Position numbers and translations under genes: made by a program. Shown one piece after another: positions 1 through 2,993 of a DNA stretch of 13,394 nucleotides. The number at the start of each line of letters is the position of its first letter. Position 1 is the stretch's first letter. The stretch spans positions 1 to 13,394 of the forward strand of contig VBBE01000107.1 in NCBI GenBank assembly GCA_005884605.1, in the 5' to 3' direction. The notes under the pieces are model-generated. The model was given only the letters and a program-made list of their open reading frames with translations. It did not search any database and had not been told where the DNA came from. The DNA is from Candidatus Bathyarchaeota archaeon (lineage in GTDB: Archaea > Thermoproteota > Bathyarchaeia > 40CM-2-53-6).

Positions 1-2993
1 CTCGTCGAGATTATCGCCTATCTCAGGGACGATCAAGTCTGTGATCTCAATGTGTGTCTTGCCTCGGTCCCTGATCTCCTGAATCGTTTGGAAAATTGGT
101 TGCGCATCCGGTATTCCGATATACTTTCTGACAAAACTGGTCTCCGCGCTGCCCTTGAAATCGACGGTTATACAATCGAGAAAATCATCCATCAACGCAA
201 CCGTATCTGGAGTATCGAATCCATTGGAGACAAATATGTTGATGAGCCCGTTCTTACGAGCTTCAACCCCGATATCCCGAGCGAACTCCATGAATATCGT
301 GGGCTGATTATACGTATACGCCAAGCCCTGACAACCATGGCTCAGCGCCAAGCTGACCACATCAGGAGGCATAAGATCAGTCCCCTCCACCTTCCTCCGC
401 TGACTAATGTCAAAGTTCTGGCAATTACTTACAGCGAAAAAATTTGCCAGGTAGGTATGGTCTTCTTCAACTTCCATGTTGTAAACGAACCCACTGTAGC
501 TCTCGCCAGTGACCGACTTGACGGGGATTAGATAGCAATCCTCTCTCTCGACAACCAACCCTCTAATGTCCTCCCACTCGAGGGTCTCACTCGAGGAAGA
601 AGAGTTTCTCTTTAGCACCTTCACGAGGTAGTCGGTATGACGGGACACAGTTCTGCCTTCAATGACGGTTGAGGGACTGTTTTCCCCAAGGTAGAACCTT
701 GGAACTGAGCCTAACTTCAGGAAGAGTAGGGCAACCCCAAGACTGAGACTCTTGGAGACTGAGTTTGCTCCTAGAAAACTTTCATCCTCACTCCCATTCG
801 CTGCCGTCTCGTACCCGTCTCCATTCAAGTAACCTGTCAAGAAGGCTTTGACTATTCCTCTATGACTGCTCGATAACACAAACTCAGGGACCTTCTTAGA
901 ATATGTGTCATTTCCGCATAAAGTTTTGAAAATGTGACCGAGGATTGAGTTGGAAAGATACACATGCACAACCGATCCCTGCCTCGTTACACTACATTCA
1001 AGTCCGAACACTCGTTTCACCAGCTCCCGAACATCGCCAACATTCGATGTCTCATCTTTGCCAAATGTGAAACAGACTGTAAAAGAATTTGGTCGGTTGA
1101 TTTGCTTTGACGTGGACCCGTCAGCGCAATAGTATCCCAAAAGCTTCGCAAAGTCTTCGTCCAAACCTATGAACCTTGGAAGGGTATGCTTGCTGTTGCT
1201 AAGTCTGACAGTTCCTTTTGACACGCTAACTCTGTAGCGATTGTACGGAGTGGAGAGCCCCGTGGGGCTCGAACGCGAGAGCCTAGCTCGGGCCCTTTCG
1301 ACTATTCCCGGGTGAAGTTTCAGTACTTCACCGATCTCAAGGCTGCTACTCCCGTTCCGGGACATCTCAACGATTCTCGTAAGTGTTGAGCGCGTTAGGT
1401 GCCATTGACGAGTCGATCGAATGCCCTTGTACTTCGGGAGGTCAACGCCTTTGAGAAATGCTGACAAGTCAAGGCGGCTTACATGCTTGTGTGCTCTCAT
1501 CTTTGGTAATAGAAGGTAATTCTTCGTGGTGATGAAGCGAGCCTGTACCTTTCGTGGGGGTCTTTCGGGGTCCGTAGTTGCCAGAATACCGTGGTCAGGT
1601 GTGCATCTCAGCGCGGGCAGGTACGACGGTTTTATCGTTAGAACCGGGCCTTCATAGAAATGCCTGAAGACCTTTTTGACACGGCGGAACCTGCCTCTGT
1701 GGGTCAACGCGGAAACACCTGATATGTTCCGCTTACTACTCAATCCATTTCCAGTCTCGTTGGTCCCCTCTTGATAGAGCTCGGCAAGAGTCTTTACGCC
1801 CCTGGTCGTGAAAACAGAGGTGTCCGGAGTAAAGCAGTAGCTGCAGTTGTGGAGGATTATGCTATCCCCAACGTAGTTGTGGTTGGGGATACACTCGAAG
1901 CTGTATACTGGCTCAAAATGTTCGGTCGGCTTTACGCTTGTTACATCGAGCCATGTTCGCTTGTTTAGCATCAAAGGGGCCGCAAGATGCTGTACGATGA
2001 GTGCCTTCACCTCTTCGCGATGATCATACGCGTGCCTGCCCGATATTCTGAGAACTTGCCACCCGTTCTCGCGGAGTGTTTGATCCCTAACAAGGTCTCT
2101 CTCGCGGGTTCGCTCGTGCTTGTAATGCCACCAGCCATCTATCTCGATGTCCAGTTTGGAATCGGGAAACGCCGCGTCTGCGATGTATGTAGCTCTGGAA
2201 TCTGACAGTCGGTGCTCCGGCTGGATTCGATACTCCTGATCGTATTCCAAGCCCATTTCGTCAAGAAGCTGGTATAACCGCTTCTGGCCTTCAGAAGGAT
2301 GGCGGTGCAGCCAGGTCCTGAGCCTCTCAGTATTCCTGTGCCAGCCCAGTTGTCAATTCCCTTCACGGACTCCCCGCATTTTGTGCAGTTGAATACAGCT
2401 CGCTGAATAGACCCCGGCCTCTTACGTTTCCAGTCTTTGGTATTCTGATACCAAACCTTCAGAATCTTTTCTCCCGGTGCAACCTTCTCTACTGATTTCC
2501 ATCCGGAGTCTGTCATAACAGGATGCTCGGCAGTTAGGGAGAGGTGCCCAGCACCCCGGGCTCCGTATCTTAGGTCCCAGATCCGGGCAAAACGGGACCC
2601 TGTACGTGTAACGACGTTCGGGTGAATATTCATCCCATTGTCTATGTCATAAGACCAGAGAGAATCTCCAGGCAGCAACTCCTCCACGGGTTTCTTATCG
2701 CCGTTTGAGAGTAAGATCTCAGCTCCAGCGGGATGGCAAAGCCAGTTACAACCGGTTGTTGCGATGGAGAATATTTTCGACCCGGGCATGTAGTGGACCA
2801 CGGGTTTCTTCTCGATCGGGTCGATGTGGCCGGTGATCACTTTTCCATAGACTAGGAGCTGGAGTTTTCCACCGATATTCTGGCGGACTCCGCAAAGGCC
2901 CACCTTTCCTTCGGGAATGTTGCAGTAGCGAGCGCATGCTGTGCATCTGACCCTTGAATCTGCCAGTGGCTGGTAGAGGAGGGCTTCCTTCAT
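1..2993 (-). CDS. AmmeMemoRadiSam-type radical SAM enzyme, interrupted by two inteins (3' end off window)
   Basis: The N-extein (2993 down to 2739, 85 residues) has the family's cysteine-rich start (Cys17, 20, 24, 34), then DPIEKKPVVHYMPGS and the first cluster cysteine in GCNWL. After intein 1 comes CSY, then intein 2, then CQNFDISQ and a TIM-barrel-like stretch with LAYTYNQPTIF and VDFKG that leaves the window at base 1. Spliced, the motif is CNWLCSYCQN, a CX3CX2C [4Fe-4S] site with the usual aromatic residue before the third Cys. Family members are near 330-350 residues; 229 extein residues are visible here. The family belongs with AMMECR1 and Memo homologues; its substrate is not established. 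I chose ATG 2993, which gives the family-like start MKEALLYQPL; GTG 3005 and TTG 3008 are alternatives. Reading is continuous except for one single-base shift in intein 1 (about 2330-2355). As written, the protein would stop at 2139. Confidence 0.92.
424..1836 (-). mobile_element. Intein 2, with a two-motif LAGLIDADG homing endonuclease
   Basis: This 471-residue intein opens with CFTPDTSVFTTRGVKTLAEL, a classic block A. Block B has TPDH at 1591-1602. The endonuclease region has two LAGLIDADG-type helices: LLGYYCADGS (catalytic Asp codon at 1120-1122) and FLTGYLNGDGYE (Asp codon at 817-819), so both acidic residues are kept. A helix-turn-helix-like stretch (SRNGSSSLEIGEVLKLHPG, about 1270-1365) sits between the splicing half and the first motif. 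Block F is VYNMEVEEDHTYLANFFAVSN, ending Ser-Asn before Cys+1 (421-423), so the penultimate His is replaced by Ser. The frame is open throughout. The +1 Cys is the third iron-sulfur ligand of the host motif. Both the splicing and endonuclease activities appear intact by inspection. Confidence 0.93.
1837..1845 (-). other. Three-residue extein (Cys-Ser-Tyr) between two inteins
   Basis: These nine bases (tgc agc tac on the minus strand) lie between the terminal Asn of intein 1 (1846-1848) and Cys1 of intein 2 (1834-1836). The Cys is both the +1 nucleophile for intein 1 and the second cluster-ligating cysteine of the radical SAM motif. The Tyr is the aromatic residue that normally precedes the third cysteine. 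Without these residues, CNWL joined to CQN would lack a CX3CX2C site, so the tripeptide is necessary host sequence rather than intein. Confidence 0.92.
1846..2738 (-). mobile_element. Intein 1, with a Vsr/DUF559-like nuclease domain and a frameshift
   Basis: The N-terminal splicing block begins CHPAGAEILLSNG at 2738. Block B carries the TAEH motif at 2523-2534. The C-terminal blocks read YSFECIPNHNYVGDSIILHN and end in the canonical His-Asn, followed by Cys as the +1 nucleophile. Between them lie a CxxC knuckle (NCTKCG) and a nuclease-like region with YIADAAF (Asp at 2176-2178), DIEIDGWWHY (Glu at 2143-2145, Asp 2137-2139, His 2125-2127) and RDQTLRENGWQVLRI. That pattern fits the PD-(D/E)XK Vsr/DUF559-like endonucleases rather than LAGLIDADG. 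The intein spans 893 bases, one short of 298 codons. Upstream frame NCTKCGESVKGIDNWAG and downstream frame HRNTERLRTWLHRHP join near 2340, and the downstream frame has a TGA at 2353-2355. One extra base there would restore a full intein. The splicing residues all look intact. Confidence 0.9.

Follow-up and report, generated by a model that had tools for sequence, protein, structure and literature searches.

Two inteins three codons apart in the iron-sulfur cluster motif of an archaeal AmmeMemoRadiSam gene, with a frame break in one of them

The window analyzed here is the whole 13,394-nucleotide stretch of contig VBBE01000107.1, and its nearest named relatives are metagenome-assembled genomes (MAGs) recorded as Candidatus Bathyarchaeota. 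A radical S-adenosylmethionine (SAM) enzyme gene of the AmmeMemoRadiSam type occupies positions 1-2993 on the minus strand (with a TTG at 3008 as an alternative start), and this gene is interrupted by two inteins. The N-extein, MKEALLYQ...GCNWL (2739..2993), matches TIGR04337 with 86 bits over profile positions 4-84 and is 97.6% identical to the intein-free relative L001. It is followed by intein 1 (1846..2738), which runs from Cys1 to His-Asn, has a nuclease of the DUF559/MTES_1575 type and is frame-broken. A middle extein of Cys-Ser-Tyr (TGCAGCTAC, 1837..1845), found as part of a contiguous CSYCQN in intein-free relatives, separates it from intein 2 (424..1836), a LAGLIDADG-type intein of 471 amino acids (aa) that runs from Cys1 to Ser-Asn (PF14890, 1.9e-15; LAGLIDADG_3, 1.3e-6). 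The C-extein begins with CQNFDIS (1..423; TIGR04337, 83 bits, profile positions 82-223) and is truncated at the window edge.

The preliminary description of this DNA had proposed that two inteins split adjacent cluster cysteines of one radical SAM motif, and this was borne out. Read along the minus strand, the inteins lie at 2738-1846 and 1836-424, with the three-residue CSY at 1845-1837 between them, and removal of both leaves CNWLCSYCQN, as in intein-free relatives. The joined exteins thereby contain the CX3CX2C motif (CNWLCSYC), which is likewise present in the intein-free relatives. L001 and L003 lack inteins, are ~96% identical to the window over the joined exteins and read through GCNWL-CSY-CQN without a gap; L004 and L006 also have a gapless GCNWLCSYCQN, and L002 is empty too, with GCSWI-CSY-CQN. 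The check set in advance, whether intein-free relatives join at CNWL/CSY/CQN, therefore gave no refutation, and chance was ruled out as the source of the junctions by the residue-for-residue match to these relatives. Against TIGR04337, the joined exteins of this edge-cut gene score 192 bits over positions 4-223 of 349, where the whole-protein cut-off is 220, and the full-length relatives P0217, P0026 and P0110 score 325.7, 308.1 and 298.7 bits. As a separate observation, stretches 30-31% identical to intein 2 were found at L004:1850-2890, ~2-3 kb upstream of the intein-free AmmeMemoRadiSam gene of that locus.

Each intein ends directly before a cluster cysteine. The Cys of the middle extein, the predicted second cluster ligand, doubles as the +1 residue for intein 1, and the first Cys of the C-extein, the third cluster Cys, does so for intein 2. 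The sequence thus agrees with the earlier claim that a cluster Cys of the CX3CX2C site is the +1 residue of each intein, and the dependence of cluster assembly on both splicing events follows from the layout, with splicing itself predicted. Intein 1 has the class 1 residues C..TAEH..LHN|C (Cys1, TxxH, His-Asn and Cys+1), spread over two frames; its DUF559 match is above the cut-off, and its MTES_1575 and Hint matches are below theirs. Intein 2 has its class 1 residues in a single frame (C..CTPDH..AVSN|C), with a penultimate Ser instead of the usual His, and both its Intein_splicing and LAGLIDADG_3 domains exceed the cut-offs. The idea that the two inteins are recent copies of one another was rejected, as only a 22-residue match was found (at the C-termini, in P0110) and the nucleases differ.

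The earlier account spoke of a direct translation across the whole region, and this did not hold. In the window, intein 1 has no continuous reading frame: its N-half lies in the open reading frame (ORF) at 3008-2139 and its C-half in another frame. ORF 1 (2139..3008, minus strand) comprises the N-extein, the N-half of intein 1 and an out-of-frame tail that runs to a stop. ORF 2, counted from its first ATG (1..2256, minus strand), comprises the nuclease part and C-half of intein 1, CSY, intein 2 and the C-extein, and runs past the window edge. In the ORF 2 frame, PF04480, PF14890 and PF14528 exceed their cut-offs and PF04055, at 28.6 bits, falls just below its cut-off of 29.5. DNA alignment with six intein-1 relatives (L024, L025, L026, L027, L035 and L044), which are 83 to 93% identical on either flank, revealed one clean gap at 2346/2347 on the minus strand, where the window lacks 166 bp. 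Since 166 leaves a remainder of 1 when divided by three, the frame shifts within the nuclease part of intein 1, and because the deletion is out of frame, the host gene is also interrupted. All 166 bp are kept in 6/6 of these relatives, and intein 1 is open in five (L024, L025, L027, L035 and L044). A single base error was rejected as the cause of the break since the relatives carry 166 bp there, and collapse of a repeat is unlikely, as the flanks have only ~1 bp in common. Among the best 120 of 1390 protein matches, coverage of ORF 1 was at most 76%, with none extending over the out-of-frame tail, which is so far a singleton among the matches listed. Barring an assembly error, the window copy is most likely defective in cis, and the gene probably makes neither a full precursor nor a whole protein.

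Other interrupted copies were seen as well. The close relative L026 has an in-frame TAA in intein 1, just upstream of the point at which the window is deleted, and in L138 (genome G013), possibly the same genome as L026, intein 1 is split over two ORFs. In P0198, P0202 and P0204, the N-extein and the N-half of intein 1 are followed by unrelated tails that begin inside the nuclease part. P0204 lies on a 999 kb contig, and such repeated breaks in the same part make these proteins candidates for true split inteins.

To assess how common the pair is, two protein searches (the best 120 of 430 and the best 120 of 511 matches) were combined into 191 proteins, which were sorted by motif parsing. Both inteins, in a single frame and at the same two sites as in the window, were found in 51 of the 191; of the rest, 34 hold the first intein only, 82 the second only, 23 are incomplete and one is ambiguous. 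All 51 doubles fit GCNWL|C...HN|CxYC...[A/S/G]N|CQN, and position x between the two is occupied by R in 43, Q in five, K in two and A in one. Intein 1 is 353 aa long in seven of them, 310 aa in one and 164-185 aa in 43, and intein 2 measures 360-412 aa, 264 aa (in one) or 171-198 aa. Both inteins are short in 17 of the 51. When five loci were added, giving 56 doubles (some possibly the same genes), and intein lengths were split at 250 and 300 aa, there were 29 short-long, 19 short-short, five long-long and three long-short combinations of intein 1 and intein 2. Judged from their length, the short inteins appear to have lost the usual nuclease. The double insertion is a recurrent family and is not unique to the window; the earlier note had treated it as a single case, and of this the arrangement proved real and the singularity did not, as the pair recurs in 51 further proteins and nine genomes. 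A restriction of site 1 to GCNWL hosts was also considered. It is true for the 51 doubles and the 34 site-1 proteins, yet it is not a rule, since GCSW hosts carry site-1 inteins at three loci (L159, L160 and L168) and in three fragments (P0193, P0203 and P0204).

The fold of an intact double was examined in a predicted model of the relative P0110 (726 aa with exteins, two short inteins), and the evidence for Hint folds thus comes from this relative and not from the window. The model has two separate Hint domains, at 105-278 and 282-460, each matched to solved inteins, with the three-residue extein between them.

Genomes were screened with profile A1, built from the intein pair, in 400 genomes sampled from the class of L031, with at most four candidates scored per genome. 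This class is recorded as Euryarchaeota EA_22, which we take to be Thermoplasmata. A1 matched in 22 of the 400 genomes: nine hold doubles (three of them, G398, G451 and G459, on cut contigs), five have site 1 and five site 2 occupied, one is unresolved (G418) and two are of another host type or unplaced (G495 and G642). The empty-site pattern GC[N/S]WxCxYCQN was found 100 times in 99 of the 400 genomes; these matches were not confirmed as AmmeMemoRadiSam enzymes. The residue preceding site 1 in them is L in 10, M in five, S in two and, by subtraction, R in 83. Thus Arg precedes site 1 in 83 of 100 empty matches of this class (also that of G040), and the resolved GC[N]W intein carriers of the class in which this end is visible show Leu. 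A target preference, a splicing preference or lineage are candidate explanations for the Leu. With G418, G495 and G642 left out, the GCNWL hosts comprise 10 empty (pattern matches only), five site-1, five site-2 and nine double cases (Fisher p 0.14, odds ratio 3.6), and so the sampled class gives no sign of mutual exclusion of the two sites.

Several loci of this class deserve mention. Compared with P0119, both inteins of the G451 double (L113 and L126) carry in-frame deletions, and its intein 2 is without the block B TxxH region. In L116 (G408), a site-1 intein has Trp at the Cys1 position (GCNWLWHPAG) in a gene that is otherwise open; if the sequence is correct, the first splicing step of this intein would be lost. 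L124 (G495) has an intein at the second-site position of a different radical SAM host (GCTFRCAHC...CQNYTIS).

The two sites are also occupied separately. Occupancy was compared by tblastn at 47 loci, and no double was found among them. Twelve loci have intein 1 with an empty second site (L024 to L027, L029, whose start is cut, L030, L031, L035, L037, L040, L042 and L047), six have intein 2 with an empty first site (L032, L034, L036, L038, L039 and L041), and L033 (intein 2) and L044 (intein 1) end before the other site. In the class of L001, a near relative of the window, 12 of 256 genomes match: eight with intein 1, one with intein 2 and three unplaced. The second site is empty in seven of the eight intein-1 genomes (in G013 with a frame break), and the contig is cut in G003. 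In the class of G042, 29 of 400 genomes match; several weak matches are other inteins or lack the motif, and some contigs are cut. L157 and L175 have relatives of intein 1 followed by HN|CLFCQNH in a host type unlike the main family. No relative was found when viral contigs were scanned with P0109 and P0110, and a viral source is not supported.

Intein 1 of the window is closest to site-1-only alleles (L024, 96% in the N-half and 91% in the C-half), its intein 2 is closest to the site-2-only protein P0002 (85% identity), and its extein is closest to L074, L024 and L001 (96-97%). In an extein tree (FastTree), the nearest rows to the window are empty or site-1 alleles. Since the two inteins resemble two separate single-intein alleles, the window pair likely arose stepwise, through two separately moving inteins and apart from the doubles of the other class, as far as sequence similarity can tell. 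Among the 56 doubles, the identity values of the two inteins and the extein are correlated with one another (Mantel r 0.60-0.65; 0/2000 permutations as high), which suggests that established pairs are partly co-inherited.

The anatomy is observed directly, as are the exact joins at empty sites, the recurrence in one frame elsewhere and the deletion in this contig. We are quite confident in the following reading: the CX3CX2C motif of an archaeal AmmeMemoRadiSam gene is split by two inteins three codons apart, each predicted to use a cluster Cys as +1 nucleophile, and intein 1 is frame-broken by the loss of 166 bp, so that a full precursor is likely not made. Two mobile inteins, whose nucleases are of the DUF559 (PD-(D/E)XK-like) and LAGLIDADG types, respectively, would circulate separately and target the same conserved motif DNA. 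A double would form by homing of one intein into an allele occupied by the other, or by recombination with such an allele. Where a double is intact, both inteins would follow the class 1 splicing route (Cys1, TxxH, Asn and Cys+1). Splicing could proceed in either order, since removal of one intein leaves an intermediate laid out like a natural protein with a single intein, and the enzyme could bind its cluster only once both inteins are gone. In the window, the deletion lies within the nuclease part of intein 1. Each insertion would alter the target flank of the other intein, 9 bp away, and entry into singly occupied alleles, as in the MCM doubles of haloarchaea, may apply more strongly here.

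A different origin of the frame break would be a natural split intein, in which the N-half of intein 1, made from ORF 1, would splice in trans with the nuclease and C-half encoded by ORF 2. Fractured genes have such split inteins with Vsr-like endonucleases, and a nuclease between split intein halves recalls the broken intein 1. The break does sit in the nuclease part, with an open splicing half (N and C) on either side, an ATG at 2256 is in frame with ORF 2, and the N-halves of P0198, P0202 and P0204 likewise end in unrelated tails. These three, however, were chosen by a query and a length range that favour such proteins. The break of the window is known from one contig and is not conserved, in that all six aligned relatives have the 166 bp (five open, L026 with a stop); the tail of ORF 1 is without a match among the best 120 of 1390, and all 51 census doubles are in one frame. 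We regard a split intein as very unlikely. About as improbable, in our view, is an assembly artifact, either a chimera of an intein-1 and an intein-2 allele or a deletion that is an assembly error. Empty, site-1 and site-2 alleles do coexist among the relatives and could have been merged, but the stretch common to single alleles at the join is only 9 bp, and that common to the flanks of the deletion ~1 bp, presumably too short for the usual overlap. The earlier note had named a chimera of two alleles as a risk, and it is made unlikely by the same pair in 51 other proteins and nine genomes (three of these on cut contigs).

Another possible explanation concerns why the pair is kept. As a redox switch, oxidation of C-x-Y-C would block both splicings, and maturation of the oxygen-labile enzyme would require reducing conditions. 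The middle Cys lies three residues ahead of Cys1 of intein 2 in 51/51 doubles, and in Pyrococcus abyssi MoaA, pairing of an N-extein Cys with the intein Cys1 is reported to block splicing (PMC10663303). In 17 of the 51, both inteins are short, and the pair is not maintained there through homing by nucleases of its own. On the other hand, the cluster motif itself forces the same Cys spacing, close relatives are without one or both inteins, and broken copies exist, which makes the switch rather unlikely. A shared latch of this kind is best called doubtful: a single C-x-Y-C disulfide would stop both splicings, its reduction would free both, and the pair would be kept after nuclease loss. One disulfide could stop both because the middle Cys is the +1 nucleophile of intein 1 and is also three residues before Cys1 of intein 2. 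If true, a two-intein gate would release an oxygen-labile iron-sulfur enzyme only after reduction of that enzyme's own cluster cysteines.

Several results weigh against the account of two separately moving inteins that combine freely, or limit it. Among extein-tree pairs differing at site 1, those opposite at site 2 outnumbered those that were the same (means of 7.9 vs 3.0 over 27 pairs; median p 0.23, range 0.04-1, not significant), and this test leans away from free combination of the sites. The tree is weak, with 72 of 223 inner branches starred, and the number of origins is unsure. No double was found in the 256 genomes of the class of L001, where a few loci are cut or unplaced, and no locus read in the 400 genomes of the class of G042 shows both inteins. 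The protein census is biased, as its queries carried inteins. The deletion is known from one contig, and a misassembly there is conceivable. The P0110 model has a mean predicted local distance difference test score (pLDDT) of 66.7, and 10-residue blocks of the N-extein score 27-49.

Inteins in radical SAM proteins are already known, and a three-residue pair in the AmmeMemoRadiSam motif appears to be undescribed: literature searches, mostly of titles and abstracts, returned nothing on inteins in AmmeMemoRadiSam proteins or on two inteins this close. Among the closest known systems are the haloarchaeal MCM-a/MCM-d inteins, where two nuclease-bearing inteins occur in one archaeal gene and singles, doubles and empties coexist (PMC10643990). 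There, two-intein homing into an empty allele is described as inefficient, with singly occupied alleles favoured, and the doubles, too, are attributed to entry into singly occupied alleles (PMC10643990). Both MCM nucleases are LAGLIDADG and the sites are called close in that account (PMC10643990), whereas here the sites are three residues apart, in one metal motif, and the nucleases are of two types. MoaA of P. abyssi is likewise a radical SAM host in which an extein Cys can pair with the intein Cys1, but a single intein is described there (PMC10663303). The NCBIfam models NF038136 (Rv2578c family) and NF045703 (Tes) represent radical SAM hosts with inteins and match both inteins of the window weakly, with scores far under the cut-offs and with other host families. 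DnaB of M. smegmatis also has two inteins, one of which is described as inhibited by oxidation through a catalytic Cys; its host is a helicase, however, with the inteins placed outside any metal motif in that description (PMC6195587). The present family includes natural proteins with every combination (none, first, second and both) and with long and short inteins, and thus makes testable the limit of closeness for two splicing inteins, mutual exclusion of the nucleases and splicing-gated assembly of an iron-sulfur cluster. Short-short doubles such as P0110 are a ready experimental object.

Elsewhere in the window, scans for tRNA genes and Rfam families found none. A stretch at 3010-3070 on the minus strand (GGGTTCAAATCC) looks like the T-arm and 3' end of a tRNA, but ARAGORN and Rfam give no tRNA there; it is perhaps an intron-bearing or partial tRNA gene. 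A run of small, secreted-looking ORFs at 5250-7430 shares an FTFTVTA-like C-terminal ending, and three of these ORFs searched against Pfam matched no family. At 4399-5152 on the minus strand, there are two adjoining, similar small ORFs (134 and 104 aa) that resemble membrane proteins.
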